Assembly: GCA_023260655.1 (NCBI GenBank) | Contig: JALQUU010000012.1 | Location: forward strand, 1 to 57,523 | Reading direction: 5' to 3' | Source of the DNA: Paracoccaceae bacterium | GTDB lineage: Bacteria > Pseudomonadota > Alphaproteobacteria > Rhodobacterales > Rhodobacteraceae | Length of the DNA stretch: 57,523 nucleotides | Shown here: positions 5,713 through 52,918 of the stretch, piece after piece | Layout of the letters: each line of letters starts with the position of its first letter | Numbering within the stretch: the stretch's first letter is position 1 | The notes under the pieces: generated by a model | Database searches by the model: none | The model's input: the letters and a program-made list of their open reading frames with translations, nothing else | What the model was told of the DNA's origin: nothing | Translations under genes and position numbers: made by a program

Positions 5713-5723
5713 GGAGAGTGAGA

Positions 5724-6281: not shown

Positions 6282-6382
6282 GGTTCTCGCCTGAAAAAAG
6301 GGCCGAGACGAAGGTCTGACTTGCTCTTTCGGATAGGTTATCAGTGCGCCGCGGCAGAAAAGCTGCGGTGCAACATATTTGT

Positions 6383-6402
6383 AAATTCATTTTCGTGAAT
6401 TT
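6383..6402. promoter_or_regulatory. Candidate SoxR operator upstream of soxX
   Basis: A perfect inverted repeat AAATTCA, six bases, TGAATTT lies 80 bp before the soxX start. It contains ATTC-N8-GAAT, which matches the motif I recall for the related sulfide sensor SqrR. The 6282-6481 gap also holds two GTGCAC hexamers at 6425-6430 and 6435-6440, one helical turn apart. SoxR binding in the soxW-soxX gap is known from other species; the assignment to these bases is inferred. Confidence 0.7.
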
Positions 6403-6481
6403 GTTGTTGCGTTGAGCCCTCTCCGTGCACTACGGTGCACAAAGCTATCCAAAGCCGGAACCGGTAGCCAAGGGAGGACTC

Positions 6482-6952: not shown

Positions 6953-6986
6953 CGCCGAGCGAGACTCACGAGTTAAGGAGACAGAC

Positions 6987-7409
6987 ATGGAATTCAACAG
7001 ACGCGAAACGCTGGTGCTTGGCCTTGGTGCTGCTGCGTTTGCCGCCCTTCCGGTGCGCTTTGCCGCCGCCGCAACGGCTGACGAAATGATCGCTGCCTTC
7101 ACGGGCGGTGCCGCAGTTGCGGACGGTGGCGTGACGCTCACCGCGCCGGAAATTGCAGAAAACGGCAACACGGTTCCGGTTTCGGTTTCGGCCGAAGGCG
7201 CATCGTCGATCATGGTGCTCGCAATGGGCAACCCGACCCCGGGTGTGGCGACCTTCAACTTCGGTGAAGCAGCCGGTGCCCATACCGCATCGACCCGTAT
7301 CCGCCTCGCAGGCACGCAGGACGTGGTGGCAATCGCCAAGATGGCAGACGGCTCCTTCGCCCGTGCAGCTTCGACTGTGAAAGTTACCATCGGCGGCTGC
7401 GGCGGCTGA
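6987..7409 (+). CDS. soxY: SoxY, sulfur-carrier subunit
   Basis: This 140-residue protein ends in GGCGG. The cysteine on this swinging arm carries thiosulfate-derived sulfur between SoxAX, SoxB and SoxCD. A twin-arginine signal (NRRETLVLG, then AAAFAALPVRFAAAA) exports it folded, together with SoxZ, which has no signal. The ATG at 6987 follows AAGGAG; the open frame starts earlier but lacks support. Full length for the family. Confidence 0.96.
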   Translation: MEFNRRETLVLGLGAAAFAALPVRFAAAATADEMIAAFTGGAAVADGGVTLTAPEIAENGNTVPVSVSAEGASSIMVLAMGNPTPGVATFNFGEAAGAHTASTRIRLAGTQDVVAIAKMADGSFARAASTVKVTIGGCGG

Positions 7410-7435
7410 TCCTGAGATCCTGAGGAGAATATAAA

Positions 7436-7765
7436 ATGGCAGATGGTGTTAAACCCCGCGTGAAGGCCCCCTCGAAGGCGGCTGCTGGCGAGGCTGTCGT
7501 GCTGAAGACCCTGATCTCCCACACGATGGAATCGGGCCAGCGCAAGAACAAAGACGGTTCCCTGATCCCGCGTTCGATCATCAACCGCTTCACCTGCGAA
7601 TTCAACGGTAAGTCGGTTGTGGATGTGGAACTGCATCCGGCAATCTCGACCAACCCCTACTTCGAATTCGAAGCAGTGATCCCGGAAACCGGTGAGCTGA
7701 AGTTCACTTGGTACGATGATGATGGCTCGGTCTACACGGACGCGAAGCAGGTGACGGTCGGCTGA
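7436..7765 (+). CDS. soxZ: SoxZ, partner of SoxY
   Basis: This 109-residue immunoglobulin-like protein has no signal peptide, as expected for a partner that travels with SoxY through the Tat system. Recognisable segments are the TLISHTMESGQRK N-terminal strand and the central CEFNGKSVVDVELHPAISTNP. It starts 26 bp after soxY with GAGGAG upstream, and soxA follows 37 bp later. Confidence 0.96.
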   Translation: MADGVKPRVKAPSKAAAGEAVVLKTLISHTMESGQRKNKDGSLIPRSIINRFTCEFNGKSVVDVELHPAISTNPYFEFEAVIPETGELKFTWYDDDGSVYTDAKQVTVG

Positions 7766-7802
7766 CCGTCACTTTCGCAATAATTCCAGGGAGGGAACAA
7801 AA

Positions 7803-8669
7803 ATGACCAAGCTGACTAGCATTCGCACTCTCGCAGCTCTCGCAGTGGCTGGTTCCATCGCTTTCGGCGGTGTGGCCCAAGCTGACGAGAACGCAGAGCT
7901 GGTCGTCAACGGCGAAATCACGCTGGTGACGAAGACGGCGGCACCGGATCACCTGAAGGACGCGATGGACACCATCTACTCCGGTTGGGTGTTCCGTTCG
8001 GACGAAACGCAGGCGATGCAGGCGGATGACTTCACGAACCCGGGTATCCTCGACGCGGAAGCGGGCGTGGAGCTTTGGAACGCGGTTGACGGCACCGAGG
8101 GCAAATCTTGCGCTTCGTGCCATGGTGCAATCGAAGAAGGCATGAAGGGCGTTCGCGCTGTTTATCCGAAGTGGAACGAAGCCGCTGGCGAAGTTCGCAC
8201 GATGGAAATGCAGGTGAACGACTGCCGCAAGACCCGTATGGGCGCAGAGCCCTACAAGTACGTGTCGGGGCAGATGGGCCGGATCGTTTCGGCGATCTCC
8301 ATGCAGTCGCGTGGCGAGCCTGTGAACGTCGCCATCGATGGCAAGGCAGCAGAAACCTGGGCGAAGGGTAAGGAACTCTACTACACCCGCACGGGTATTC
8401 TGGACCTGTCCTGCGCTTCTTGCCACGAAGAGAACTATGGCAACATGATCCGCGCTGACCACCTCAGCCAGGGTCAGATCAACGGTTTCCCTGTGTACCG
8501 TCTGAACAACGCCAAGATCAATCAGGTGCACGACCGCTTCAAGGGCTGCGTCCGCGATACGCGCGCAGAAACCTACAATCCGGGTAGCCCCGAGTTCATC
8601 GCGCTGGAACTTTATCTTGCTTCGCGCGGTAACGGGCTTTCGGTTGAAGGCGTCTCGCTGCGTAACTGA
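7803..8669 (+). CDS. soxA: SoxA, diheme cytochrome c of SoxAX
   Basis: This 288-residue protein has a signal peptide ending in AQADE and two heme sites, C103-A-S-C-H107 and C204-A-S-C-H208, so it is the diheme type. Cys249 in RFKGCVRD is the conserved cysteine that ligates the active-site heme and forms the persulfide. Cys141 is probably structural. With SoxX it attaches thiosulfate to SoxY. The start follows AGGGAGG. Confidence 0.96.
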   Translation: MTKLTSIRTLAALAVAGSIAFGGVAQADENAELVVNGEITLVTKTAAPDHLKDAMDTIYSGWVFRSDETQAMQADDFTNPGILDAEAGVELWNAVDGTEGKSCASCHGAIEEGMKGVRAVYPKWNEAAGEVRTMEMQVNDCRKTRMGAEPYKYVSGQMGRIVSAISMQSRGEPVNVAIDGKAAETWAKGKELYYTRTGILDLSCASCHEENYGNMIRADHLSQGQINGFPVYRLNNAKINQVHDRFKGCVRDTRAETYNPGSPEFIALELYLASRGNGLSVEGVSLRN

Positions 8670-8816
8670 TGCTATTGTCCGGGGGCGGGCTCAGTGCTTG
8701 CCCCCGGACCACAAAAACCAAGCGAACAGGGATATGCGGCTCCATTCAGGGGCGACCGGAGCGCGCGAAGGCGGGCACCGGAAGGATGTAGACATAAACT
8801 TCGGAGTTAGAGGCGC

Positions 8817-10520
8817 ATGATCTCTCGCCGTGATTTCCTTCAGGTGGCAATGGCCACCTCTGCTCTTTACAGTGCCTCGGGCTTTGGCAATTGGGCCAAG
8901 CTCGCCGCGCAGCAAGCTTTGACGCAAGACGATCTGCTGAAGTTCGACACGTTCGGGAACGTGACGCTGATGCATATCACCGATATTCACGCGCAGCTGG
9001 TGCCGCATTACTTCCGCGAGCCGGAGATCAACCTTGGTGTTGGCGGCGCGAAAGGGAATGTGCCGCATATCACCGGCGCGGATTACCGCAAGCTTTACGG
9101 GATCGCCGATGGCAGCCCGAATGCCTATGCGCTGACCTACAATGACTTCGCGTCGCTCGCGAAGGGCTATGGCAAGATTGGCGGCATGGACCGCGCGGCG
9201 ACTGTCATCAACGCGATCCGCGCCGAGCGCCCTGACGCGCTCCTCTTGGATGGTGGCGATACGTGGCATGGTTCTTACACCTGCTTCCAGACCAACGGTC
9301 AGGACGTGGTGAACGTGATGAACGCGCTGAAGCCCGATGCGATGACCTTCCACTGGGAATTCACGCTGGGCCAGGACCGCGTGCGCGAGTTGGTGGCGTC
9401 GTCGCCCTTCGCGATGCTGGGCCAGAACATTTTCAACGCTGAGTGGGACGAGCCTGCGGAAGAGTTCAAGCCCTACGAGTTCTTCGAGCGCGGTGGCGTG
9501 AAGATCGCCGTGATCGGGCAGGCCTTCCCCTATATGCCGATTGCCAACCCCGGCTGGATGTTCCCCGACTTCTCCTTCGGTATCCGTGACCAGCGGATGC
9601 AGGAGATGGTGGACGAGGTTCGTGCCGAGGGTGCGGAGTTGGTGGTTTGCCTCTCGCACAACGGCTTCGACGTGGATAAACAGATGGCGAGCCGCGTGAA
9701 GGGGATCGACGTGATCCTGACGGGCCACACCCATGACGCGCTGCCGGAGCCTGTGCTGGTGGGCGAGACGATCCTGATTGCCTCGGGCAGCCACGGCAAG
9801 TTCATCACCCGCGTTGACCTTGATGTGCGCGATGGCCGCATGATGGGCTTCCGCACCAAGCTGATCCCGCTCTTCGCCGATGTGATCGCGCCCAATCCGG
9901 AAGTAGCCGCCGTGATCGAAGCCGAGCGCGCGCCCTATAAGGCGCAGCTGGAAGAAGTGATCGGGCGGACGGATGCGGATTCGCTGCTTTATCGCCGTGG
10001 TAACTTCAACGGCTCCTGGGACGATCTGATCTGCGACGCGCTTCTGTCGGAGCGGGAAGCGGATATCGCGATGTCGCCGGGCGTGCGTTGGGGCACTTCG
10101 GTGCTGCCCGATAGCGAAATCACCCGTGAAGACTTGTGGACGGTCACGTCGATGACTTATCCGAACGCTTATCGGACGGAAATGACGGGTGAATTCATCC
10201 ACACGATCATGGAGGACGTGGCGGACAACCTGTTCAACCCGGACCCCTATTACCAGCAGGGTGGCGACATGGTTCGTGTGGGTGGCATGGGCTACACCAT
10301 TGACGTGACGAAGCCGATGGGCAGCCGGATCACCGATATGATCCTGTTGAAAACCGGCGAGAAGATCGATCCGGCGAAGTCTTACGTGGTGGCTGGCTGG
10401 GCCTCGGTGAACGAGGGCACGGAAGGCCCGCAGATCTGGGATGTGGTGGAAAGCCATATCAAGAAGCAGGGCACCGTTTCGGTGAAACCCAATACGAGTG
10501 TGAAGGTGCTGGGCGCGTAA
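8817..10520 (+). CDS. soxB: SoxB, manganese thiosulfohydrolase
   Basis: This 567-residue periplasmic metallohydrolase removes the terminal sulfone from SoxY-bound thiosulfate as sulfate. It starts with a Tat signal (ISRRDFLQVAMA) and carries the 5'-nucleotidase-like metal motifs TDIHAQ (Asp56, His58), LDGGDTWHGS (Asp148), HWEFTLG and LTGHTHDA. It lies 147 bp after soxA in the same operon. A further candidate operator follows it, before soxC. Confidence 0.97.
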   Translation: MISRRDFLQVAMATSALYSASGFGNWAKLAAQQALTQDDLLKFDTFGNVTLMHITDIHAQLVPHYFREPEINLGVGGAKGNVPHITGADYRKLYGIADGSPNAYALTYNDFASLAKGYGKIGGMDRAATVINAIRAERPDALLLDGGDTWHGSYTCFQTNGQDVVNVMNALKPDAMTFHWEFTLGQDRVRELVASSPFAMLGQNIFNAEWDEPAEEFKPYEFFERGGVKIAVIGQAFPYMPIANPGWMFPDFSFGIRDQRMQEMVDEVRAEGAELVVCLSHNGFDVDKQMASRVKGIDVILTGHTHDALPEPVLVGETILIASGSHGKFITRVDLDVRDGRMMGFRTKLIPLFADVIAPNPEVAAVIEAERAPYKAQLEEVIGRTDADSLLYRRGNFNGSWDDLICDALLSEREADIAMSPGVRWGTSVLPDSEITREDLWTVTSMTYPNAYRTEMTGEFIHTIMEDVADNLFNPDPYYQQGGDMVRVGGMGYTIDVTKPMGSRITDMILLKTGEKIDPAKSYVVAGWASVNEGTEGPQIWDVVESHIKKQGTVSVKPNTSVKVLGA

Positions 10521-10558
10521 GCGCCCGCACTTGCGACCAATTGGCATTTGAACTTCGA

Positions 10559-10584
10559 AACAAATTCACATAAATGAATTTGTT
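10559..10584. promoter_or_regulatory. Candidate SoxR operator between soxB and soxC
   Basis: A perfect 10-bp inverted repeat, AACAAATTCA, six bases, TGAATTTGTT, fills the middle of the 89-bp soxB-soxC gap. Its core AAATTCA-N6-TGAATTT is identical to the one upstream of soxX apart from the spacer. It suggests a SoxR-controlled internal promoter for soxCD. It overlaps an upstream in-frame ATG at 10574, which argues that the true soxC start is at 10610. Confidence 0.65.
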
Positions 10585-10609
10585 AATGAAAGAGGAGGCG
10601 ACGAACGAC

Positions 10610-11893
10610 ATGACCGACCGTTCCGAAGACAATTCGCCCTCGCGCCGCGCGTTCCTGAAGGGCACGCTGGCCGCGGGCGGGGCGCTTGCAGGGGCCACGA
10701 TGGCCCGTGCCGAAGGGCCCGATCCGTTGATCACCGAAAAGCAGCCTTGGGCCATGGGCACGGGCGATGGTGTGGACGCAACGCCCTATGGCATGCCGAT
10801 CCGTTTCGAAGGCGACGTTGTGCGCCGGAACGTGGAATGGCTGACGGCGGACACGATCTCGTCGATCAACTTCACGCCGATCCATGCGCTTGACGGCACG
10901 ATCACCCCGCAGGGCTGCGCTTTCGAGCGCCACCACTCGGGCGCGATCGAACTTTCGAAAGACGATTATCGCTTGATGATCAACGGCTTGGTCGATCAGC
11001 CGCTGGTGTTCACCTATGCCGATCTGGAGCGTTTCCCGCGTGTCACGCGCACGTTCTTCCTTGAGTGCGCGGCCAACACCGGCATGGAATGGGCGGGTGC
11101 GCAGCTGAATGGCGCGCAGTTCACCCACGGCATGATCCACAACATGGAATACACCGGCGTGACGCTGCGGACGCTTCTGGAAGAAGCGGGCCTCGGTGCT
11201 GCGGGCGATTTCAAAGACAAGTGGCTTTACGTGGAAGGCGCGGATGCGTCGTCGAACGGGCGTTCGATCCCGCTGGAAAAGGCGCTTGATGACTGCATGA
11301 TCGCATTCAAGGCCAATGGCGAGGCACTGCGGAAGGAGCACGGCTATCCGGTGCGCCTCGTGGTTCCGGGCTGGGAAGGCAATATGTGGGTGAAGTGGCT
11401 GCGCCGCATGGAAGTGACTGCGCAGGCTATCGAATCCCGCGAAGAAACCTCAAAATACACCGACACGCTTGAGAACGGCACGAGCCGCAAGTGGACCTGG
11501 GTTATGGATGCGAAGTCCATCATCACCTCGCCCTCGCCGCAGTCGCCCATCAAGCATGGCCACGGGCCTTTGGTGATCACGGGCCTCGCATGGTCGGGAC
11601 GTGGTGCGATCATGGGTGTGGATGTGTCGCTCGACGGTGGCAAGAACTGGCAGGAAGCCCGTTTGGCCGCTCCGGGGCAGGACAAGGCGCTGACGCGTTT
11701 CTACCTCGATATCAACTGGCAGGGCGAAGAGATGCTGCTGCAGGCGCGTGCGAAGGACTCGACTGGTTATGTCCAGCCGACCAAGGCACAGCTTCGCGAA
11801 GTGCGCGGCCTCAACTCGATCTACCACAATAACTGCATCCAGACCTGGCACGTCTATCCGACCGGGGAGGCCGAAAATGTTGAAGTCTCTTAA
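10610..11893 (+). CDS. soxC: SoxC, molybdenum subunit of sulfane dehydrogenase
   Basis: This 427-residue sulfite-oxidase-family protein binds Mo-pterin through Cys153 in TFFLECAANTG. It begins with a Tat signal (SRRAFLKGTLAAGG), as needed for export with the cofactor bound. With SoxD it oxidizes the SoxY-bound sulfane by six electrons. I use the ATG at 10610 with GAGGAGG 11 nt upstream rather than the in-frame ATG at 10574, which lies inside the candidate operator. Its end overlaps the soxD start by 17 bp, indicating coupled translation. Confidence 0.96.
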   Translation: MTDRSEDNSPSRRAFLKGTLAAGGALAGATMARAEGPDPLITEKQPWAMGTGDGVDATPYGMPIRFEGDVVRRNVEWLTADTISSINFTPIHALDGTITPQGCAFERHHSGAIELSKDDYRLMINGLVDQPLVFTYADLERFPRVTRTFFLECAANTGMEWAGAQLNGAQFTHGMIHNMEYTGVTLRTLLEEAGLGAAGDFKDKWLYVEGADASSNGRSIPLEKALDDCMIAFKANGEALRKEHGYPVRLVVPGWEGNMWVKWLRRMEVTAQAIESREETSKYTDTLENGTSRKWTWVMDAKSIITSPSPQSPIKHGHGPLVITGLAWSGRGAIMGVDVSLDGGKNWQEARLAAPGQDKALTRFYLDINWQGEEMLLQARAKDSTGYVQPTKAQLREVRGLNSIYHNNCIQTWHVYPTGEAENVEVS

Positions 11894-12950
11894 TCTTTTC
11901 GCATCTGTCGCCGTTGCGGCGCTGATCGCATCGCCGGTTATGGCGGAGAAGTTCGGCCTTGGCCGCGCGGCTTTGCCCGAAGAAATCGCGGCGTGGAACC
12001 TCGATGTGTCTCCGAATGGAGATGGCCTGCCGGCGGGTTCGGGTTCGGTTGCGGATGGCGAGAATGTCTTCTCTGAGAACTGCGCAATCTGCCACGGTGA
12101 ATTCGCGGAAGGTGTGGACAACTGGCCGAAGCTTGCCGGCGGTATGGACACGCTCGACCGCGATGACCCGCTGAAGACGGTGGGGTCGTACTGGCCGTAT
12201 CTTTCGACCGCATGGGACTACGTGCACCGCTCGATGCCCTTCGGCAATGCGCAGACGATGAGCGTGGACGATACCTATGCGATCGTCGCTTACATCCTTT
12301 ACTCGAACGACCTCGTGGACGATGACTTCGTGCTCTCCAACGAGAACTTCCTCGAAGTGCAGATGCCGAACGCGGACGGGTTCATCATTGATGACCGCGA
12401 GACTTCGGAGAAGCATTTCTGGAACGCTGAACCTTGCATGACGAACTGCAAGGAGTCGGTCGAGATCACGATGCGCGCGACGGTTCTGGACGTGACGCCG
12501 AACGATCCGAACGACGATGCTCCGGCAGCGGCGGAACCGGCAGCGGCTCCGGCGGAAGAGCAGAAGGCCGAAGCGGCACCTGCGGAAGCACCGGCAGCGG
12601 CACCTGTGGTGGAAACCGCCGCAGTTGATCCGGCGCTGGTTGCGGCGGGCGAGAAGGCGTTCAAGAAGTGCTCGGCTTGCCACCAGGTGGGCGAGGGCGC
12701 GGCCAACAAGACCGGCCCCGAGCTGAACAACCTCTTCGGGCGTAAGCTGGGCGGCAATGACGGCTTCAAATACTCCAAGACCATCACAGCGATGGGCGAG
12801 GAAGGCATCGTTTGGGAAGAAGCCAATCTGGCGGAATTCCTGAACAAGCCGAAGGACTACATCAAGGGCACGAAGATGTCCTTTGCGGGGTTCAAGAAAG
12901 ACGAGGATATCGCGGCTGTGACCGCGTATCTGAAGACCTTCTCGAACTGA
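11877..12950 (+). CDS. soxD: SoxD, diheme cytochrome c subunit
   Basis: This 357-residue protein has a signal peptide (ALIASPVMAE) and two cytochrome domains, with hemes at C69-A-I-C-H73 and C265-S-A-C-H269. They are joined by an Ala/Pro/Glu-rich linker at about 213-248. It takes electrons from SoxC during sulfane oxidation. The ATG at 11877 follows GGGGAGG inside the end of soxC. A strong terminator follows, so it is the last gene of the main structural transcript. Confidence 0.95.
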   Translation: MLKSLNLFASVAVAALIASPVMAEKFGLGRAALPEEIAAWNLDVSPNGDGLPAGSGSVADGENVFSENCAICHGEFAEGVDNWPKLAGGMDTLDRDDPLKTVGSYWPYLSTAWDYVHRSMPFGNAQTMSVDDTYAIVAYILYSNDLVDDDFVLSNENFLEVQMPNADGFIIDDRETSEKHFWNAEPCMTNCKESVEITMRATVLDVTPNDPNDDAPAAAEPAAAPAEEQKAEAAPAEAPAAAPVVETAAVDPALVAAGEKAFKKCSACHQVGEGAANKTGPELNNLFGRKLGGNDGFKYSKTITAMGEEGIVWEEANLAEFLNKPKDYIKGTKMSFAGFKKDEDIAAVTAYLKTFSN

Positions 12951-12957
12951 GAATAAG

Positions 12958-12987
12958 GGGCGGGCCGGAACACTGGCCCGCCCTTTT
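12958..12987 (+). terminator. Intrinsic terminator between soxD and soxE
   Basis: A perfect 9-bp GC stem, GGGCGGGCC/GGCCCGCCC, with an 8-nt loop is followed by TTTT. It lies 7 bp after the soxD stop and separates soxX-D from soxEF. Confidence 0.9.
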
Positions 12988-13152
12988 CGTTTCCGGCGTT
13001 TAGGGGCGCTGGAACGTGATCGCATTCGCATCCGGGAGGGATGCGGAGGCCTCGAAACGCGCCCCGGATCGGCGCGTGGCCCCTCGTTTCTCCTCCATCG
13101 TGCGGCGGTCGTTTGGAACGAAGGGGCCGTGGCCCAAGGGAGGAACGCGCGT

Positions 13153-13851
13153 ATGCTGAAACGGATCATTCTGGCTCTGGCGATTGCTGGCGGACCTGTG
13201 TCTGCGGCGGAGTTGATCGGTGATGCGGACAAGGGCGAGATCGTTTTCCGGAAATGCTCGGGTTGCCATGAGGTAGGCGTTTCGGCGCGGAACCGCATCG
13301 GGCCGGAGTTGAACCGGATTTTCGGGCGGCGCGTGGCGGCGGAGAAGGACGGGTTTTTCTATTCCAAGGGGCTTGCACGCATGGGGGCGGACGGGCTGGT
13401 CTGGGAGTTCAAGACGCTCGACGCCTATCTGGAAAATCCGAAAGCCTTGGTGACGGGCACGCGGATGAATTTCTCCGGCCTGAAAGATCCGCAGGATCGG
13501 GCCGACGTGCTGGCCTATCTGCGCCAGTTCTCCGACATGCCGCAGAATATTCCGGAATCCTCGCCCACGGCACGGGCGCGGGAAGTGGAATTGCCGCCAG
13601 AGGTGTTGGCGCTGGTGGGGGATCCGGAATATGGCGAGTACCTCGCGAACGAGTGCCAGACTTGCCACCAAGTGGACGGAAGTAATGACGGGATACCGGC
13701 GATCATTGGATGGCCGGCGGAGGATTTCGTCATCGCGATGCATGCCTACAAACAAAAGATCAGGCCGCATCCGGTGATGCAAATGATGGCCGGGCGATTG
13801 ACCGAGGAGGAGATCGCCGCGTTGGCCGCTTATTTTAACGGGCTCGAGTAA
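13153..13851 (+). CDS. soxE: SoxE, diheme cytochrome c
   Basis: This 232-residue protein has a signal peptide (RIILALAIAGGPVSAAE) and two heme sites, C35-S-G-C-H39 and C168-Q-T-C-H172. Its first domain resembles the C-terminal cytochrome domain of SoxD. It corresponds to SoxE, the cytochrome partner of SoxF in a flavocytochrome c-like pair. The ATG at 13153 follows GGGAGG. It sits after a terminator, so a promoter in 12988-13140 is likely, although I cannot point to one. Confidence 0.9.
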   Translation: MLKRIILALAIAGGPVSAAELIGDADKGEIVFRKCSGCHEVGVSARNRIGPELNRIFGRRVAAEKDGFFYSKGLARMGADGLVWEFKTLDAYLENPKALVTGTRMNFSGLKDPQDRADVLAYLRQFSDMPQNIPESSPTARAREVELPPEVLALVGDPEYGEYLANECQTCHQVDGSNDGIPAIIGWPAEDFVIAMHAYKQKIRPHPVMQMMAGRLTEEEIAALAAYFNGLE

Positions 13852-13876
13852 AGCCAAAACCAAGGGAGGAACGACA

Positions 13877-15142
13877 ATGACTTTGAATAGACGCGCCTTT
13901 ATCGGAACGGGCATTGCCACTGCCGCGGCGTTGAATGCGCCGATGGTGATGGGGCAAGCAAAGCCGCGAGTTGTTGTGATTGGTGGTGGTGCAGGGGGCG
14001 CTACGGCGGCCCGTTACATCGCGAAAGACAGCAAGGGAGCAGTGGAGGTGACGCTCGTCGCAGCGAACCCCATCTACACGACCTGCTTCTTCTCGAACCT
14101 TTACATTGGCGGTTTCCGCGAGTTCGAGAGCCTTCAGCATGGCTATGACAAGTTGGCGGCAACGGGTGTGACCGTGATCAACGATCTCGCGACGGGCGTT
14201 GATCGCGCGGCGAAGACGGTGACGCTCGCGGGGGGGCAGGTACTGCCTTATGATCGTTTGGTGCTGTCGCCGGGGATCGATTTCCGCGATGGTTCGGTGC
14301 CGGGTTGGTCGGTGGATGCGCATGCGGAAATCATGCCGCATGCCTATGAGGCCGGACCGCAGACGCAGCTTTTGAAGGCGCAGATCGAGGCGATGCCGCA
14401 GGGCGGGACTTTCGCGATGATCGCGCCGCCGAACCCCTATCGCTGCCCGCCCGGGCCGTATGAGCGGATCAGCATGGTGGCGTCGCTTCTGAGCCAGAAG
14501 AACCCGACGGCGAAGATCTTGCTGGTGGATCCGAAGGAGAAGTTCTCGAAGCAAGGCCTCTTCGAGGATGGCTGGAGCCGCCATTACCCCGGTATGATCG
14601 AGCGGGTCGGGCCGGACTTCGGGGGTGACAAGGTGGAAGTGCGCCCGGACACGATGGAAGTTGTGATCGACGGTTCGGCGCAGAAGGTGGATGTGTGCAA
14701 CGTGATCCCCGGCCAGATGGCGGGCAAGATCGCACAGATCGCCGGTGTGACCGACGAGAAGGGCTGGGCTCCGGTTCTTCCTGACAGCATGAAGTCGAAG
14801 ATGGACGAGAACGTATTTGTGCTGGGGGATTCTTCGGCGCAGGGCGATATGCCGAAGTCGGGCTTCTCGGCCAATAGCCAAGCCAAGGTGGCGGCGATGG
14901 CGATCCGTGGGGAACTGACGGGATCGAAGGTGTTCCCGGCCAAGTATTCCAACACCTGCTGGTCGCTCTTGGCGGCAGATGACGGGGTGAAGGTGGGGGC
15001 GTCTTACGAGCCGACACCGGAGAAGATCGCCTCGACATCGACCTTCATCAGCAAGAACGGCGAGGATGCGGGCCTTCGCAAGCAGACCTACGAGGAGTCG
15101 GTTGGTTGGTACGAGGGAATTACGGCCGATATTTTCGGCTGA
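13877..15142 (+). CDS. soxF: SoxF, flavocytochrome c sulfide dehydrogenase flavoprotein
   Basis: This 421-residue FAD protein has a Tat signal (LNRRAFIGTGIATAAA) and the dinucleotide fold VVVIGGGAGGATAARY at about 32-47. A second FAD motif, FVLGDSS, lies near 314-320. Cys190 in NPYRCPPGPYE and Cys361 in SNTCWSLL match the redox disulfide of the FCSD family. With SoxE it oxidizes sulfide. It follows soxE by 25 bp and ends the sox cluster; no soxG or soxH is present. Confidence 0.94.
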   Translation: MTLNRRAFIGTGIATAAALNAPMVMGQAKPRVVVIGGGAGGATAARYIAKDSKGAVEVTLVAANPIYTTCFFSNLYIGGFREFESLQHGYDKLAATGVTVINDLATGVDRAAKTVTLAGGQVLPYDRLVLSPGIDFRDGSVPGWSVDAHAEIMPHAYEAGPQTQLLKAQIEAMPQGGTFAMIAPPNPYRCPPGPYERISMVASLLSQKNPTAKILLVDPKEKFSKQGLFEDGWSRHYPGMIERVGPDFGGDKVEVRPDTMEVVIDGSAQKVDVCNVIPGQMAGKIAQIAGVTDEKGWAPVLPDSMKSKMDENVFVLGDSSAQGDMPKSGFSANSQAKVAAMAIRGELTGSKVFPAKYSNTCWSLLAADDGVKVGASYEPTPEKIASTSTFISKNGEDAGLRKQTYEESVGWYEGITADIFG

Positions 15143-15165
15143 TCCTGCGAGAGCGACAAAAGGCA

Positions 15166-15190
15166 GCGGGCCGAAAGGCTCGCCTTTTTT
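15166..15190 (+). terminator. Intrinsic terminator after soxF
   Basis: The 7-bp stem GCGGGCC/GGCTCGC (one G-T pair) is closed by a GAAA tetraloop and followed by CTTTTTT, 23 bp after the soxF stop. Confidence 0.85.
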
Positions 15191-15357
15191 GCTGTTTTTG
15201 GCACTACTAGAGTGCGGTTGTTGCGAAGGAATGAAATGGTGACGGTGAGACCGCGCGCCGAAAGGCCAAGGGTGGGGGCATCAGGGTAGGTCTTGTTCCT
15301 TTCTGTGAGGCACTGTGTTTAACCCGAGAATGAAGAACGAACGCATAGGCTTACCGA

Positions 15358-15945
15358 ATGGAAATCTCCAGTTTGAGAACCTTCCTGATCGCGAATATCG
15401 GGGTTTTCCTGCTGTATTGCTTCTCTTACTGGTTCGTTGATGCGGTTATCAGCCCGATCCAGGAGACAATCCTTCCAGGCTCTGTGGCTTTCGTTTCGCT
15501 GGTATTCCTTCCTTCGGGCGTGCGGATCGTTGCCTTCATCCTGTTCGGGTGGCGTGCCTTGCTGCCGATCCTTTTAGGGTCACTGTTGTGCAACCAGTAT
15601 TTCTGGGGCGTGCAAGACACCAGTCTGCTTTGGCTTCTGTCCGCTTCCTCAACGCTCGTGTTCTACTTCGCAATGAAGATGAGCCAATGGCTGGGGCTGA
15701 GCGTTTTTCTTGAGGACACTTTGCCAAGACTGCCGCCTTTCCGGACGATCATTCTCGTGACTGTCGTGGCATCGGCGCTGAACGGGATCATCAGTTCTGC
15801 GATTTTCGGCACCTACGTGGCCTATTTGAATGGTGGCTTGGTGGCCATGGAATATGTGTTGGGCGATTTGCTCGGCACGCTTTGCTTCATGGTTGTCCTG
15901 AGTGCCCTGTTCAATTTCATGAACAAGCAACAAATCCGGCTTTGA
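15358..15945 (+). CDS. Membrane protein resembling a lone MASE1 domain
   Basis: This 195-residue, very hydrophobic protein has about five or six membrane segments. The stretch PGSVAFVSLVFLPSGVRI followed by LFGWRALLPILLGSLL resembles the MASE1 membrane sensor domain, which is usually fused to a kinase or GGDEF output. No output domain is present. The start at 15358 has no clear ribosome site. Its base composition is a little lower in GC than its neighbours. It stands alone between the soxF terminator and the convergent photolyase-like gene. The function is unknown. Confidence 0.6.
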   Translation: MEISSLRTFLIANIGVFLLYCFSYWFVDAVISPIQETILPGSVAFVSLVFLPSGVRIVAFILFGWRALLPILLGSLLCNQYFWGVQDTSLLWLLSASSTLVFYFAMKMSQWLGLSVFLEDTLPRLPPFRTIILVTVVASALNGIISSAIFGTYVAYLNGGLVAMEYVLGDLLGTLCFMVVLSALFNFMNKQQIRL

Positions 15946-15952
15946 GCTCTGA

Positions 15953-17152
15953 TCAAAGCGCTTGCAGGAGCTTCGGGATCGCTTCCTTGAAGCGGAAGAA
16001 GCCATGCGTGGCGTGAGGCCATGCGCGGGCGTCGAAGGGGCGCTGGATTTGAGTGAGGCGGATGCCGTGGGCAGCGAGTTTCGGTTTGGCGGACGCGAAG
16101 AGATCGGCAGTGGGGCCGACGGGGGCGTAGGGCGTGACGAGGGCTGTGAGGCCCATGTCATGTGCCCAAGATACGAGGGCGTCCGGAGTGCTTGCGGGGC
16201 CGGAGACGGGGCCTAGGCGGGCGGACCAGCGGGAGGCGGTGTCTGCTAGGGCGGCTTCGGAGAAGAAGAGGGGCTGAGGGGCCACGTGGAAGGGCGAGAG
16301 GCCTTTGCGCGCGGTGAGGAGGAGAGTTGCCTCGGGGCGGATGCCATGGCCGGAGAGGAGGTAATCCGGTGCGAGGTCTTCGTCATGGAGAATGAGGCCG
16401 ATGCGTTGGGCTTCTGGGGCGGTATCGCCAAGGGGAAGCGCGCTGCGGGTCGGATTTGTCGGCTCGGTGAGGGGATCGGCATAGGGCGCGAGGCCTTCGG
16501 GGCGGTGGCGGCCTTCGGTGTAGCGGGCGATGTTCTCGGCAGTTGCGAGGTAGGTTTTGCCTTGGGTGTGCAGCCCGCCGACCCAACGCCACGAGAGGGT
16601 GTTGGAGGCGACATCGGCATCGAGGAGGTGGCGGAGGAAGAAATCCGCGCCCAACTCCCATGGCAGGCCAAGGGTGAAAATCCAGATCGAAGCGAACCAC
16701 ATGCGGGCGTGGTTGTGCATGTAGCCTGTTTCGGTGAGTTCCTTTGCCCAATCATCGAAGGCAGCGATGCCGGTTTGGCCCAAGCAGGCGCTTTCCCCGT
16801 TCTGGCGGAGGCCGGATTCTGTGGCGAGGCGGTTTTGCAGCTGCGCGAGGCGGGTGCGGTAGCTGGCCCAGACGGAGGGGCGCATTTCGAGCCAGCCCTT
16901 CCAGTAGGTGCGCCAGAAGACTTCCTGCACGAATTTCTCGGCGGCCTGCGCGGAGTGGCGGCCTAGCACGGCGCGGAGAACCTCCTCTTCGGTCAGAAGG
17001 CGCGTGCGGAGGTAGGGGGAGAGGGTGGAGACATGGCGATGGGCGCCCGGGCCAAGATCGAAGTTGCGCAGGCGGGCATAGTCGGCGCCGGCTTTCGGCA
17101 CAAAACTTGCGAGGCGTTCGAGGGCGTGTGTGCGGGTCGGAAGAAAGGTCAT
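15953..17152 (-). CDS. Photolyase/cryptochrome-like FAD protein with swapped domain order
   Basis: This 399-residue protein begins directly with the FAD-binding helical domain of photolyases: FVQEVFWRTYWKGWLEMRP near 80-98, GYMHNHARMWFASIWIF, and SWRWVGGLHTQGKTYLATAENIARYT. The alpha/beta antenna-type domain that normally comes first is instead at the C-terminus (RIGLILHDEDLAPDYLL, then SWAHDMGLTALVTPYAPVGP). It would be a light-using flavoprotein, possibly for DNA repair. The start at 17152 leads into a typical first helix; an in-frame codon at 17203 would add 17 residues. Repair activity cannot be read from the sequence. Confidence 0.75.
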   Translation of the reverse strand: MTFLPTRTHALERLASFVPKAGADYARLRNFDLGPGAHRHVSTLSPYLRTRLLTEEEVLRAVLGRHSAQAAEKFVQEVFWRTYWKGWLEMRPSVWASYRTRLAQLQNRLATESGLRQNGESACLGQTGIAAFDDWAKELTETGYMHNHARMWFASIWIFTLGLPWELGADFFLRHLLDADVASNTLSWRWVGGLHTQGKTYLATAENIARYTEGRHRPEGLAPYADPLTEPTNPTRSALPLGDTAPEAQRIGLILHDEDLAPDYLLSGHGIRPEATLLLTARKGLSPFHVAPQPLFFSEAALADTASRWSARLGPVSGPASTPDALVSWAHDMGLTALVTPYAPVGPTADLFASAKPKLAAHGIRLTQIQRPFDARAWPHATHGFFRFKEAIPKLLQAL

Positions 17153-46058: not shown

Positions 46059-46134
46059 GCCCCTATAGCTCAGCTGGTAGAGCGGCTGATTTGTAATCAG
46101 CGGGTCGGGAGTTCGAGTCTCTCTGGGGGCACCA
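46059..46134 (+). tRNA. tRNA-Thr (anticodon TGT)
   Basis: The 76-nt cloverleaf has acceptor GCCCCTA/TGGGGGC, D-arm GCTCAGCTGGTAGAGC, anticodon stem GCTGA/TCAGC around TT-TGT-AA, T-arm with TTCGAGT and an encoded CCA. TGT reads ACA threonine codons. Its 3' 20 bases form one side of a 21-bp direct repeat used as an integration site, and its own terminator now lies 1.55 kb downstream. Confidence 0.97.
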
Positions 46135-46135
46135 T
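46115..46135 (+). repeat. Left attachment site (attL) in tRNA-Thr 3' end
   Basis: The 21-mer starting GAGTCTCTCTGG and ending GGGCACCAT recurs exactly at 47664-47684. It is the tRNA-Thr 3' end plus one base, a usual target for tyrosine integrases, and it preserves the tRNA. Confidence 0.88.
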
Positions 46136-46202
46136 AATCATCCAATAACCTACTGAATTTCCTGAGGATTAATCTTTGGGAGTGCATGTCTATAGCACAC
46201 AT
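46123..46202 (+). repeat. Left arm of 80-bp inverted repeat
   Basis: These 80 bases are the reverse complement of 47302-47381 with two mismatches (at 46142 and 46194). The arm runs from the tRNA-Thr 3' end (CTGGGGGCACCAT) through the integrase ribosome site to its sixth codon. Confidence 0.95.
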
Positions 46203-47292
46203 TCAGTACACACTGCATCGTTCTGGCACCTATTATTACAACCGTCGGGTGCCCAAATATGCGAATCTTCTCTACGGCTCTTTCATTCGTTTGGCTCTGT
46301 CGTCCGACCATGAGGAAGCCGACAGCTTGGCCTGCCGGCTGAGCAAGGCGTTAGAGGCTGCGAGGGGTGATCCGCATCATGTGGGCTACATTGACCTGCA
46401 GAAGATTGTTGAGAGTGCAAAGCCAAGGATCACGAAGCTCTCTGAGTTTGCAGGTGAATACATTGCACTGAAGGCGATTGAACCAAAACCTCTGCACAGT
46501 GCTGTCATGTCATTCATCCAACTTCTGGGGGACCGGCACGTAGCAGAGTATGGGAGGGAGGACCTAAAGGCATTTATTCAACCACTCCTCGGCAAAGGGA
46601 ACAAGACGGCTACCATTCGGAGACGGGTCAACTCCATAGCAGCAATCTTGAACTATGCTTACGCCGAACTGGATTTGGAAAAGAGAAACCCAGCTTCGAG
46701 GCTCCTAATCAAGGGGGAGGGGAGTGATGCTCATAAGAGAGGTACTTTTTCGACTGAGCAGTTGAAGACCGGGTACGAGGAGGCCTTTGCGTCTGGTAAT
46801 GTGATCAAGCTATTGATGCCGATCCTTGGAGAAACGGGCTGTCGTCTCGCAGAGATTGTGGGGCTACGTACCTGCGATTTTGATCTGGAAGCTGGGCTGA
46901 TCAGGATTACACCACACGCACATCGAAGACTTAAGACTTCCGGAAGTGAACGTGCCTTGCCTTTGATTGGGTATGCTCATCAGGCGATGCACCTTGTGAT
47001 GCAGCAGTCTGATCGTAGCTTTGTTTTCGCAAGATATGTGCGAGACGACAAAGTAGTAGCCACACACGTCAGTAATGCTCTCAATGTTTGGTTAAAGAGG
47101 CGTTTCGATAATCTTACCGCACATAGTTTACGGCATACGATGCGAGACAGGCTAAGGGCTGTAATGGTTCCTCTTGAGATGATCGACCAAATTGGTGGTT
47201 GGTCTTCTGTGAACAACATTGGATCATCATACGGGGAAGGGTATTCAGTCGATCAAATTAGAGAGTGGATGAATAAGATTAAGCTGGATTAA
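46186..47292 (+). CDS. Tyrosine recombinase (integrase)
   Basis: This 368-residue site-specific recombinase has an N-terminal arm/core region (TYYYNRRVPKYANLLYGSFI) and a C-terminal catalytic domain: Arg220 in GETGCRLAEIVGL, His313 and Arg316 in AHSLRHTMRDRL, Trp339 in QIGGWSS in the usual His/Trp position, and the likely nucleophile Tyr349 in NNIGSSYGEGY. The start follows TTTGGGAG and lies within the left inverted repeat. Codon use is more A/T-rich than its neighbours, a sign of transfer. It is the only gene of the element. Confidence 0.94.
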   Translation: MSIAHIQYTLHRSGTYYYNRRVPKYANLLYGSFIRLALSSDHEEADSLACRLSKALEAARGDPHHVGYIDLQKIVESAKPRITKLSEFAGEYIALKAIEPKPLHSAVMSFIQLLGDRHVAEYGREDLKAFIQPLLGKGNKTATIRRRVNSIAAILNYAYAELDLEKRNPASRLLIKGEGSDAHKRGTFSTEQLKTGYEEAFASGNVIKLLMPILGETGCRLAEIVGLRTCDFDLEAGLIRITPHAHRRLKTSGSERALPLIGYAHQAMHLVMQQSDRSFVFARYVRDDKVVATHVSNALNVWLKRRFDNLTAHSLRHTMRDRLRAVMVPLEMIDQIGGWSSVNNIGSSYGEGYSVDQIREWMNKIKLD

Positions 47293-47663
47293 CGCAATCG
47301 GATGTGTGCCATAGACATGCACTCCCAAAGATTAATCCTCAGGAAATTCAGTAGGTTATTGAATGATTATGGTGCCCCCAGGGGTCTCTCTGCGGGCATT
47401 AAAGGCAGTTCCAGATGACGGACTGTCCGACTTCAGTCACTTTCCCCTTGGCTCTACGGCCATGTCACACATCGTGTCACACATTGTATACCAAACAGGC
47501 CTTCCGATCCGAGCAGTTACCTCTTTTGTCGTCGTTCAGATTGTCGTAACCTCACAAGACAGGAAAGACGTAGGCTATTGAAAAGATTGCGGTATCCACG
47601 GCAGATGAGGCTTAGTCTTACTTGTCGTGTGGAGGGAGGTTCTTCAGCTTTGCTGAACTGGAG
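47293..47663. other. Non-coding right part of the integrase element
   Basis: I see no supported gene here. After the inverted repeat comes an att-like GTCTCTCTGCGGGCA (47384-47398, one mismatch to the core). Then two TGTCACACAT direct repeats lie 12 bp apart (47463-47472 and 47475-47484) and may be integrase arm sites. A TTCAGC-TTT-GCTGAA hairpin lies just before attR. Confidence 0.6.
47302..47381 (-). repeat. Right arm of 80-bp inverted repeat
   Basis: This is the inverted copy of 46123-46202 (78 of 80 identical). Read leftward it repeats the integrase ribosome site and a start giving MSMAHIRLR, then a stop, so it is a copy of the left end and not a working gene. It begins 9 bp after the integrase stop. 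Confidence 0.95.
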
Positions 47664-47684
47664 AGTCTCTCTGGGGGCACCATT
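47664..47684 (+). repeat. Right attachment site (attR)
   Basis: This is an exact 21-bp copy of the tRNA-Thr 3' end plus one base. It is followed after 7 bp by the displaced tRNA terminator. Confidence 0.88.
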
Positions 47685-47892: not shown

Positions 47893-49011
47893 ATGGAAGT
47901 CGTCGCATTCTCACATAATTTGTGGCTGGTCGCCGCCTCTCTGGCTGTGGCTTTGATGGCGGGTTTTACCGGATTGAGCCTGACCAACGGGCTGTCCGAA
48001 TTCTCGCCTACGCAAAGGAAAATCGTGATCTCGCTTGCGGCAGTGGCGCTGGGGGGCGGGATCTGGTCGATGCATTTCGTGGCGATGCTCGGGCTGCAGC
48101 TTCCGTTCGACTTCTATTATGACGCTGCGGTCACTTTAGCGTCGGCTCTCGTGGCCATCCTCGTGGTGGGTGCCGCGCTTCTGATGCTGCATTTCGGGCA
48201 TAGAACCCGACAGAAGCTCGTTGCAGCGGGCGTGGTTGTGGGGGTCGGGATAATCGCAATGCATTATATCGGCATGGCCGCTCTGGAGCTTTGCCGCGCC
48301 TTGTATACGCCGCTTGGCATTGCGCTGTCGGTGGTGTCCTCCTGCCTTCTCAGCGTGGCGGCTTTCGGGATTGCTTATAGCAAACGGACTCGCCGGAATA
48401 TCCTGCTCGGAACTGTCGTGTTCGGGCTTGCAGTGTTTGCTGTCCATTTCATTGCAACGGCTGCGACGGACTTCACGCAGATCGCCACTTCATCGCAAGT
48501 CGGGCCGATGATGAGCAACGAGACGCTGGCGCTTGGCGTGGTTCTGTCGAGCTTTGCGCTCTGCGGGGCGTTCTTGCTGTCGACAGCGACTTTCCTGCCT
48601 ACGGAACCCGTGGCTGAGGAAAGGCCGGAGCCGGAAAAACCAGAGGCCAAGGAACCAGAGTCAGCCATCGCACGCGGTGCCAACACGCAAATTCCCTATG
48701 AGCTTGAGGGGCGGACGCAGTTCGTTGATGCGGCCTCGGTTGCGGTGATCCGGGCGGAGGGGCACTACACCTACATCTACACAAAATCCGGGCAGTTCTT
48801 CTGTGCCTGGTCGATTGCGGAGGCCGAAAAGCGGCTGGCGAAGTCCAATTTCGTGAAGACCCACCGCAGCTATCTGATCAATCCGCGGCTCGTAAACGGC
48901 TTCGAACGGTTGAAGGATACCGGTGTTTGTTACTTCAATCTGCCGGAGCTTCTGAAGGTTCCGGTGAGCCGCACGCAGCTCAAACCTGTCCGCGAGATAC
49001 TCGGCCTCTGA
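47893..49011 (+). CDS. coxC: CoxC-like MHYT-LytTR regulator
   Basis: This 372-residue protein has an N-terminal MHYT membrane sensor of about seven helices, with SMHFVAM, AMHYIGMAA and VHFIATAA as the three signature copies. A Pro/Glu-rich linker (about 238-258) joins it to a C-terminal LytTR DNA-binding domain (HYTYIYTKSGQFF, then FVKTHRSYLINPRLV). CoxC of carboxydotrophs has this layout, and MHYT domains are thought to bind copper and sense CO, O2 or NO. It heads the cox cluster. The ATG at 47893 is 16 nt from the ribosome site, so a CTG at 47881 is an alternative start. Confidence 0.9.
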   Translation: MEVVAFSHNLWLVAASLAVALMAGFTGLSLTNGLSEFSPTQRKIVISLAAVALGGGIWSMHFVAMLGLQLPFDFYYDAAVTLASALVAILVVGAALLMLHFGHRTRQKLVAAGVVVGVGIIAMHYIGMAALELCRALYTPLGIALSVVSSCLLSVAAFGIAYSKRTRRNILLGTVVFGLAVFAVHFIATAATDFTQIATSSQVGPMMSNETLALGVVLSSFALCGAFLLSTATFLPTEPVAEERPEPEKPEAKEPESAIARGANTQIPYELEGRTQFVDAASVAVIRAEGHYTYIYTKSGQFFCAWSIAEAEKRLAKSNFVKTHRSYLINPRLVNGFERLKDTGVCYFNLPELLKVPVSRTQLKPVREILGL

Positions 49012-49144
49012 GGCTTTCGCAGTTCGTGCAGGATTTTCGCATTTCGTGAAAAACACCTCTGTTTTCGGTGGGTAATCGCTGCTTCGGTATGCGGTTGGAT
49101 GCAGCTTCCCATTGCCTAATCATCAACGGCGGGGAGGGCCCAGA

Positions 49145-49999
49145 ATGATTCCAGCTCCATTCGACTACCACCGTCCGAGTGACCTGAAGGGCGTTCTCGC
49201 GCTCTTGCAGGAGCACGGGGACGAAGCACGCGTGATCGCGGGGGGGCATAGTTTGATCCCGATGATGAAACTTCGCATGGCCGAAGTTCCACATCTGATC
49301 GACTTGCAATCCATCGATAGCCTCAAGGGGATTTCGATCGCTGGCACGAAAGTGACCATCGGCGCACTGGTGACGCAGCATGATATTATCGATCATCCTG
49401 AACTCGGGCGCGTTGCACCGATCCTGAAGGAAACCTCGCTGCAGATAGCGGACCCGCAAGTGCGTTACATGGGCACCGTGGGCGGCAACGTTGCCAACGG
49501 CGATCCGGGCAATGACATGCCGGGGCTGATGCAATGCCTCGACGCGACGATCCATCTCATCGGGCCGAACGGCACGCGTGAAGTGGCAGCGCGGGACTAT
49601 TACGAGGCGGCCTACATGACCGCTCGTGACGACGGTGAGGTGCTCACGGCGATCAGCTTCGATGCCCCGGCTGGGGGCTATGCCTACGAGAAGCAGAAGC
49701 GGAAGATCGGTGATTACGCGACGGCCGCTGCCGCTGTGACGATCCAGAAAGCGGGCGGCAAAGTCGCCTCCGCCTCGATCGCGATGACCAACCTCAGCGA
49801 CACGCCTGTCTGGTCGGAAGCTGCAGGCGCGGCCCTTGAGGGCACGACCTGCGATGCGGCGGCCATCAAGGCGGCCGTTGCGGCGATGCTCGATGACATC
49901 GATCCGACCGAAGACAACCGTGGCCCCGTTGCGTTCAAGCGCCATGTGGCCGGCATCATCCTGACCCGCGCCATCACCCGCGCGTGGGACCGCGCGTAA
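49145..49999 (+). CDS. coxM: CO dehydrogenase FAD subunit CoxM
   Basis: This 284-residue subunit of aerobic CO dehydrogenase binds FAD through [15 protein letters not shown] and [16 protein letters not shown]. It passes electrons from the iron-sulfur subunit towards the quinone pool. The ATG at 49145 follows GGGGAGGG; the frame is open upstream to 49112. Order coxM-S-L is that of form I clusters. Confidence 0.95.
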
Positions 50000-50009
50000 G
50001 GAGAGACGC

Positions 50010-50500
<491 letters not shown>

Positions 50501-50504
<4 letters not shown>

Positions 50505-52918
50505 AAGACCTGACCGACGACCAGAAGGAACGCTCAGCCAATCTCAAAGGCATGGGCTGCTCCCGTAAGCGGGTGGAAGACGCGCGCTTCACACAGGGCA
50601 AAGGCAACTACGTTGACGACATCAAGTTGCCGGGGATGCTCCATGGTGACTTCGTGCGCTCGCCTTATGCGCATGCTCGCATCAAATCCATCGACGTCTC
50701 GAAAGCCATGGCTTTGGACGGGGTGGTTGCGGTGTTGACCGCTGCCGATCTCGCGCCGCTCAGCCTGCACTGGATGCCCACGCTCGCGGGTGACAAGCAG
50801 ATGGTGCTCGCGGATGGCAAGGTGCTTTTCCAAGGCCAGGAAGTGGCCTTTGTCGTAGCCAAGAACCGTTTCATTGCAGCTGACGCGGTGGAACTAGTGG
50901 AAGTGGATTACGAAGAACTTCCGGTGATCGTGGACCCGTTCGAAGCACTGCAATCCGATGTGGTGCTGCGCGAAGATATCGCCGACAAGAAGGAAGGCGC
51001 GCATGGGCCTCGCAAGCATCACAACCACATCTTCACGTGGGAAGTGGGGCAGGAAGCCGAGACCAATGACGTGATCTCGAACGCCGATGTGGTGGCGACC
51101 GAGACGGTTTATTATCACCGCACCCATCCTTGCCCACTGGAAACCTGCGGTTCCGTGGCATCGATGGACAAGGTGAACGGCAAGCTGACGGTTTGGGGCA
51201 CGTTCCAAGCGCCTCACGTGGTGCGGACGGTGGCGTCGCTTCTTTCTGGGATCGAAGAGCACAATATCCGCGTGATCTCGCCCGATATCGGTGGTGGTTT
51301 CGGCAACAAGGTCGGGGTCTATCCGGGCTATGTCTGCTCCATCGTGGCGTCGATTGTCACCGGTGTTCCGGTGAAGTGGATCGAAGACCGCATGGAAAAC
51401 CTGATGTCGACGTCTTTTGCGCGCGACTACTGGATGACGGGCAAGATCGCTGCGACCAAGGAAGGCAAGATCACGGGCCTGCATTGCCACGTGACCGCCG
51501 ACCATGGCGCTTTTGACGCATGTGCGGACCCGACCAAATTCCCGGCGGGCTTCATGAACATCTGCACCGGTTCCTATGACATCCCGACCGCCTATCTTGC
51601 CGTGGACGGTGTTTACACCAACAAGGCACCGGGTGGTGTGGCGTATCGCTGCTCGTTCCGTGTGACCGAAGCGGTGTATTTCATCGAACGCATGATCGAG
51701 GTTCTGGCGATCGAGTTGAATATGGATGCGGCAGAGCTGCGCCGGATCAACTTCATCAAGAAAGAACAGTTCCCCTACCAGTCCGCACTGGGTTGGGAAT
51801 ACGACTCGGGCGACTATCACACGGCATGGGACAAAGCACTGAAGGCTGTGGATTACGAAGGTCTCCGCAAGGAGCAGGCGGATCGGATCGAAGCGTTCAA
51901 ACGCGGGGAAACCCGTTCGCTGATGGGGATCGGCCTTAGCTTCTTCACGGAGATCGTGGGGGCAGGCCCGGTCAAGAATTGCGATATTCTTGGCATGGGT
52001 ATGTTCGACAGCTGCGAAATCCGAATCCACCCGACGGGTTCGGCCATCGCGCGCCTCGGCACCATTTCTCAGGGGCAGGGCCACGCGACGACCTTTGCGC
52101 AAATCCTTGCGTCGGAAATCGGCCTGCCTGCGGATAGCATCACCATCGAGGAAGGCGACACCGATACCGCGCCTTACGGGCTTGGCACCTACGGGTCGCG
52201 CTCTACTCCGGTGGCGGGTGCCGCTACGGCAATGGCTGGGCGCAAAATCCGCGCCAAGGCGCAGATGATCGCGGCTTACCTTCTTGAAGTGCACGACAAT
52301 GATGTGGAGTGGGATATCGACCGCTTCGTCGTCAAAGGGGCGCCCGAGCGCTTCAAGACGATGAAGGAAATCGCCTATGCCGCTTACAATCAGGCGATCC
52401 CCGGTGTGGAACCCGGCTTGGAGGCGGTCAGCTACTACGATCCGCCGAACATGACCTATCCCTTCGGTGCCTATGTTTGTGTGATGGATATCGACGTCGA
52501 CACCGGCGTGCAGACCATCCGCAAATTCTACGCACTCGATGACTGCGGCACGCGGATCAACCCGATGATCATCGAAGGCCAAGTGCATGGTGGCCTGACC
52601 GAAGCGCTCGCCGTGGCGCTGGGGCAGGAGATTGCCTACGACAAAATGGGCAACGTGAAGACCGGGACGTTCATGGACTTCTTCCTGCCCACGGCATGGG
52701 AAGTTCCGAACTACATCACAGATCACACGGTAACGCCGTCGCCGCATCACCCGATTGGGGCGAAAGGCGTTGGTGAAAGCCCCCATGTGGGCGGCGTGCC
52801 GTGCTTCTCCAATGCGGTGAACGATGCGTTTCGCGCCTTCGGGCTGCGTCACACGCATATGCCGCATGACCATTGGCGGATCTGGCAGACCGCCAACAAG
52901 CTCGGCTTGCACGGTTAA
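50501..52918 (+). CDS. coxL: Form I CO dehydrogenase molybdenum subunit CoxL
   Basis: This 805-residue catalytic subunit oxidizes CO to CO2 at a Cu-S-Mo site. It has the form I active-site loop VAYRCSFR with Cys384 as the copper ligand, and the catalytic glutamate Glu759 in GVGESPH. These equal Cys388 and Glu763 of Oligotropha, with the same offset. The ATG at 50501 overlaps coxS. The loop sequence separates it from the form II (AYRGAGR) homologues that need not oxidize CO. Confidence 0.96.

Follow-up and report, generated by a model that had tools for sequence, protein, structure and literature searches.

In the window (the whole 57,523-nt stretch of Paracoccaceae DNA that was analysed), a short integrase element at a tRNA-Thr gene is probably a reduced member of a widespread tRNA-targeting class, in which the integrase gene lies between the attL-side half site and a second, inverted attP, and in which one part of the excised circle would be inverted relative to the other. 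The complete anatomy of this class (tRNA, then core-P'-int, an inverted P'-core-P, cargo, and finally P-core) is repeated in many elements, and its full form is an island of 3-13 kb. Dozens of elements in several alphaproteobacterial families keep the second inverted attP with identical arms, implying a step in their life cycle beyond the standard model, and this raises the testable question of what the integrase does with the internal inverted attP.

The element at the tRNA-Thr gene

The integration target is a tRNA-Thr gene with anticodon TGT, identified with ARAGORN at 46059..46134 on the plus strand. Its 3' end forms the attL core (46115..46135, plus strand), a 21-bp sequence that is repeated exactly as the attR core (47663..47683, plus strand), and the insertion between these direct repeats measures 1.55 kb. 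In a genome of the same genus (G296) the site is uninterrupted: a single alignment spans the joined flanks of the window, and the sequence downstream of attR is continuous with this empty site. The element holds one recombinase gene only, placed between two inverted arms at 46123..46202 (plus strand) and 47302..47381 (minus strand). These arms are identical at 78 of 80 positions (97.5%, blastn), and, judged from the sequence, such a match over 80 bp with two differences cannot be chance. The direct att repeats, the 80-bp inverted repeat and their coordinates had been given in a preliminary description, together with the contents of the arm (13 nt of the att core, the ribosome-site region and the first codons), and all were confirmed here. 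Its statements that ordinary islands do not have such arms and that the arm carries the att core were also judged right.

The left arm comprises 13 nt of the core and the P' arm, the latter coinciding with the region of the integrase's ribosome-binding site and start codon. Its end coincides exactly with that of a proximal P' arm-type site, TAGCACACAT (46193..46202, plus strand; clade consensus TGTCACACAT), which was assigned by a motif scan and by the behaviour of the arm boundary in relatives. A candidate distal P' site, AGTACACACT (46205..46214, plus strand), proposed from the sequence by analogy with relatives, lies 12 bp past the proximal site and beyond the inverted arm. The integrase itself (46186..47292, plus strand) is a tyrosine recombinase of 368 aa with a DUF6538-like N-terminus, recognized from its open reading frame, Pfam matches and motifs; it matches Phage_integrase (PF00589) with an E-value of 1.7e-16, and its catalytic motifs (GCRLAE, LKTSGS, HSLRH, GGW and SYGEGY) are intact.

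The right arm, which consists of the P' and core of an internal inverted att, begins 9 bp past the integrase stop codon. Abutting it is a degenerate core-like sequence of the direct repeat family, matching the core at 16 of 21 positions (47382..47402, plus strand); with the right arm it makes an imperfect palindrome. Further downstream, the motif scan located two P-arm sites, TGTCACACAT, 12 bp apart (47463..47484, plus strand). These are on the same strand as the P' site and were therefore assigned to attR, beside which a tandem pair is also found in two related elements, L060 and L216.

Of the related integrases, the one nearest to that of the window belongs to L216 (61% identity), which has the full layout and whose P' and P sites TGTCACACAT occur in the expected orientations. 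The two integrases form a supported pair (98) within a clade of 13 (FastTree), in which eight tested members have no arm, including the islands L060, L061, L217, L218, L220 and L221. One further island with no inverted arm at its integrase, L219, carries a 3.8-kb inverted repeat of 100% identity elsewhere (5360-9161 and 12698-16499). The best reading of the window copy is a derivative that has lost its cargo, in which the internal att appears to have kept its core and P' and to have lost its P arm, because the P sites of the window are on the attR strand, as they are in L060 and L216. The junction of the cargo loss is marked by the degenerate core. We considered whether the 281-bp tail of the window element could instead be the P arm of the internal att, and rejected this, as the strand of its sites is the wrong one for that arm, and equivalent sites are on the attR side in L060 and L216. 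Assembly collapse is also an unlikely cause of the missing cargo, since it would not join the inverted core to a direct-strand P arm. Because the integrase, attL and attR look intact, the element may be excised as a 1.55-kb circle. A minimal transposon-like unit, one of the possibilities raised in the preliminary description, thus partly fits the window copy, but not the island that is the full form.

The window arm had no further copy in its own genome assembly (2.67 Mb in 265 contigs, 78% complete). Beyond attR, translations of the open reading frames indicate a membrane protein with a LytTR-like C-terminus (47893-49011) and three products resembling aerobic CO dehydrogenase subunits (49112-52918), that is, ordinary chromosome.

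A second, inverted attP in related elements

When the 80-bp arm was used as a DNA query in 61 close relatives, it retrieved the window copy only; the arm diverges too fast for DNA searches, and we therefore relied on protein and profile searches. The first step was a family-wide protein search, from which integrases adjoining tRNA genes were taken. Several that are only ~30-35% identical to the window integrase had the same inverted arm past the gene. A profile of ten integrases, applied to samples at class and phylum level as well as to named genome contigs, yielded 154 loci after removal of duplicates, 131 of them near full length. Counting inverted arms of at least 30 nt, we found one at or beyond the integrase stop in 93 of these 131 loci, a proportion that reflects a profile built mainly from arm-bearing integrases and the scoring of only the best few candidates per genome. 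The preliminary description had suggested looking for the arm-integrase-arm unit at other tRNA genes, and the outcome, with 93 related loci, was strongly positive.

The two arms were 100% identical in 58 of the 93 arm-bearing loci. In most of them the arm started at position -13 to -16 of the tRNA, and more than half had the right arm less than ~30 bp from the integrase stop. Arms nearly 100% identical inside an element differed between elements: over the first 60 bp of P', the median identity was 100% within an element and 78% against the best other element. The genes targeted were those for tRNA-Thr (24), Leu (21), Phe (14), Arg (6), Ser (4), Gly (3) and SeC (1). The hosts are largely marine Alphaproteobacteria, mostly Rhodobacterales (Ruegeria, Leisingera, Roseovarius, Shimia and Marivivens), with other alphaproteobacterial families also represented. 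Distant and weaker profile matches (L103-L110) had no arm; the phage collection searched gave no match, and the viral contigs searched gave three. An integrase of the arm family also occurred on a contig labelled as a Desulfuromonadales MAG (L179), explained either by transfer or by misbinning. The genome G298, from a sister species of the window's host in the same genus, has a different integrase, belonging to the main arm-bearing clade, at another tRNA-Thr gene (L037).

The inverted copy goes further in complete elements, where it continues outward for 0.2-3.2 kb, duplicating attR-side sequence, and because it runs on in this way we identify it as a second attP, inverted. In the closed genome G045, the sequence just inside attR recurs in inverted form at 97-100% identity over the first 350-400 bp, with second repeats of 686, 767, 729 and 379 bp. 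Second repeats of 745, 765 and 205 bp occur among L146, L149 and L162, and one of 3183 bp (100%) was found in G200. In L216, a 129-bp arm at 100% is accompanied by a 958-bp second repeat, also at 100%, and the complete megaplasmid of Ruegeria sp. TM1040 has a second repeat of 1148 bp (100%); L205, L207 and L209 are further cases of the complete form, as is L216. In the TM1040 element (L194), which occupies a tRNA-Phe gene, the second repeat includes two identical, opposed BRO genes (phage antirepressor-like; 17511-18086 and 27855-28430), a pair that is annotated as such in the public record and encloses a type I restriction system.

This second attP is made up of a core that matches the tRNA gene in which the element sits, two P-arm sites in tandem at a 12-bp spacing and, in the usual case, just the proximal P' site. 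Of 82 loci, 44 had tandem 8-mers beyond the internal core that matched an inverted P' site, compared with 0-3 in shuffles, and many of the negatives are on contigs that end before the P-site region. The 8-mer starts were almost always 12 bp apart, at ~+91 to +120 bp from the internal core. On the P' side, a second site is found 12 bp further in, within the first codons of the integrase. The edge of the inverted arm fell between P'1 and P'2 in 26 of 46 loci, while both sites were inside the arm in 9 and neither in 11; shuffled windows were positive for the P'1/P'2 pair in 12%. In most tested loci, the internal copy thus appears to consist of P sites, core and proximal P', without the distal P'. 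In L169, a complete reversed tRNA-Leu (1281-1520) forms the spacer between the core and the P sites of the internal att. Elsewhere the core-P spacer is about the length of a tRNA, often with a GGCACC motif, and the P spacer may be derived from a tRNA gene. Only the inverted core is kept in L050, L208 and L211; as some relatives have no inverted copy and others the core alone, the copy is not needed for integration.

Three copies in Marivivens donghaensis (L173, L175 and L176), with 83-93% identical DNA, are found at three different targets, and the internal core of each copy agrees with the target it occupies; for two of the three, a separate attR contig end bears the same core. A change of site seems to bring a corresponding change of the internal core, and recombination between the att copies, or conversion of one by the other, would be enough for this. 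The repeat also leaves a signature in draft assemblies. Thirty-eight arm-bearing contigs end 140 bp or less past the internal core, as would be expected if the P arm were repeated exactly. The missing attR was recovered in Marivivens from a different contig, whose end has the same core and P arm, and a second Shimia contig begins with the P-arm repeat. Such repeats are a possible cause of Rhodobacterales draft contigs stopping just past these integrases, and could make the islands hard to see in short reads.

Most readable elements encode one replication-type protein. Examples are a primase or origin-binding-like protein in L041, an archaeo-eukaryotic primase with a helicase in L209, phrog_2467-type proteins in L207 and, weakly, in L059, and phrog_4756 proteins in L045 and L216, which by our own reading carry a polymerase-like motif. 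The TM1040 element encodes a helicase-like protein, for which Pfam gave a weak hint only. Passenger genes include a type I restriction system, a sugar transport operon and TPR proteins, and L207 carries a defence-like set (HATPase, Z1 helicase, AIPR and C5 methylase; 5908-13798).

Orientation and possible use of the inverted site

Orientation can be scored where a tRNA is adjacent, and in each of these 73 loci the integrase is directed away from the tRNA. One apparent case of a flipped integrase, L169, was rejected, as its reversed tRNA-Leu belongs to the internal att and is followed by P sites at +96 and +108. The cargo does vary in orientation: the segment from the internal att to attR in L042 and L146 is opposite to that in L041 and L043 over ~5 kb (~86-90% identity), and the cargo segment of L137 is inverted relative to L125 and L149 over 1.1-1.2 kb. 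An invertible cassette in which the integrase flips itself, another of the earlier proposals, was not borne out in that form, given the single integrase orientation in these 73 loci; what is seen inverted is the cargo beyond the internal att. Ordinary homologous recombination between repeats of 0.4-3 kb could suffice for this inversion.

If a double-stranded circle offered two equivalent attPs, the two integrase orientations would be expected in equal numbers, and therefore either the internal copy is not an integration site or the flipped products are lost. In the excised circle, the two inverted att sites would divide the integrase part from the cargo part, and recombination between the sites, by Int or by homologous recombination, would invert one part relative to the other. 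Integration would proceed through the site 5' of int, plausibly since the internal copy usually has no distal P'. About nine elements have both P' sites in the arm, and those of them beside a tRNA are also co-oriented; site asymmetry is no explanation there.

What the second site is for can be proposed tentatively. There is a substantial chance, a little short of even, that the elements keep a spare inverted attP for a replicative or strand-specific step and that the two copies are homogenised in each cycle. The use that we favour, while holding it to be less probable than that general statement, is an amplification like that of the 2-micron plasmid with Flp, in which inversion during replication of the circle would turn one fork and so raise the copy number. 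We favour it because most readable elements encode a primase/helicase- or replication-type protein.

Amplification ranks above its chief rival, a folded single-stranded attP, which we consider unlikely. Here the inverted copies would anneal into a double-stranded P-core-P' rod, with the integrase and the cargo as loops, and the integrase would insert the molecule by a single-strand exchange such as CTXphi and integron cassettes use. Such folding would make use of the near-perfect inverted duplication of P, core and most of P', and a strand-specific cycle would fix the orientation of the integrase, consistent with the uniform orientation observed. A precedent is offered by CTXphi, whose attP1 and attP2, in opposite orientation, fold into attP(+) (PMC3089051). 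However, no relaxase, HUH Rep or filamentous-phage gene was found among the cargo proteins scanned, and a copy with the proximal P' only would leave P'2 unpaired.

Less probable still is a switch that flips the integrase gene through Int-mediated recombination of attL and the inverted internal att, the orientation seen being the silent end state. Arm-bearing elements do have inverted cores of matching sequence on both sides of the gene, and self-silencing would likewise yield a single orientation. Yet none of the 73 loci was flipped, the apparent exception being the tRNA inside the internal att of L169, and a switch leaves the duplicated P arm unaccounted for. We regard control at the level of the mRNA as very improbable. 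The complementary 5' and 3' ends of the integrase transcript would pair and hide the ribosome site, in line with an arm that covers the start-codon region in most loci and often recurs just past the stop. Beyond the ends of the message, however, the repeat continues through the core and into 0.2-3 kb of P arm. The inner edge of the arm lies between P'1 and P'2 in over half of the tested loci (26/46), and some arms end before the start codon while others reach more than 100 bp into the gene.

The least credible reading, a one-off rearrangement in the window MAG or the scar of two elements that entered in opposite directions, would draw on the window's missing cargo and internal P arm, its degenerate core (47382-47402) and the several armless clade members, but it is contradicted by the arm and second repeat of L216, at 61% integrase identity, by a layout conserved across many genera and by an arm position relative to the stop codon that recurs in dozens of elements. 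The preliminary description had named large islands with the same attL and integrase but no inverted copy, together with a single orientation, as the mark of such an event; armless islands do occur in the clade and no flipped integrase was seen, but the structure is recurrent, and the local event in the window is the loss of cargo only.

Comparison with known systems

In the textbook scheme, an integrase acts on one attP, which is split into attL and attR on integration. Like lambda-type tRNA islands, the elements described here have a single tyrosine integrase by the 3' end of a tRNA gene, direct repeats of the tRNA end, P and P' sites, and a clean empty site; they differ in having a second attP, inverted, inside the integrated element at or beyond the integrase stop. 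We know of no ordinary tRNA island with a second internal attP. A single attP is usual for such islands, if not strictly defining, whereas the relatives have a second, inverted attP and the window has its core and P' half. The integrase and the targeting of tRNA genes are thus ordinary, and what sets these elements apart is the retained, inverted and near-identical second attP. We found no published description of this layout in the literature searched, in which subscription papers were thinly covered.

CTXphi resembles these elements in having two att sites in opposite orientation in one element (PMC3089051). It uses the host XerC/D on a single-stranded phage genome with sites ~90 bp apart, whereas here the element's own integrase lies between sites ~1.2-4 kb apart. 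Strand-biased circularizing elements (SEs) have inverted repeats as termini and the gene set intA-CDS2-intB-CDS4 (PMC10214605). They share with the window element a tyrosine recombinase and inverted repeats, but the window has a single integrase and not that gene set. RITs have three adjacent recombinase genes, compared with one in the window. Both SEs and RITs also differ from the present elements, which target tRNA genes and have arms mostly of 70-130 bp plus long P arms.

In the 2-micron plasmid, which depends on the tyrosine recombinase Flp and its FRT sites, two unique segments lie between inverted repeats that hold the recombination site, and inversion isomers are found. The present elements differ in that they integrate into tRNA genes with P and P' sites, and amplification would be a property ascribed to them by analogy. 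They share inverted repeats that each contain a recombinase site, fully in complete relatives and partially in the window, where the internal att has no P arm. Inversion isomers have their counterpart in the cargo that is inverted between homologous elements, in which Int may play a role.
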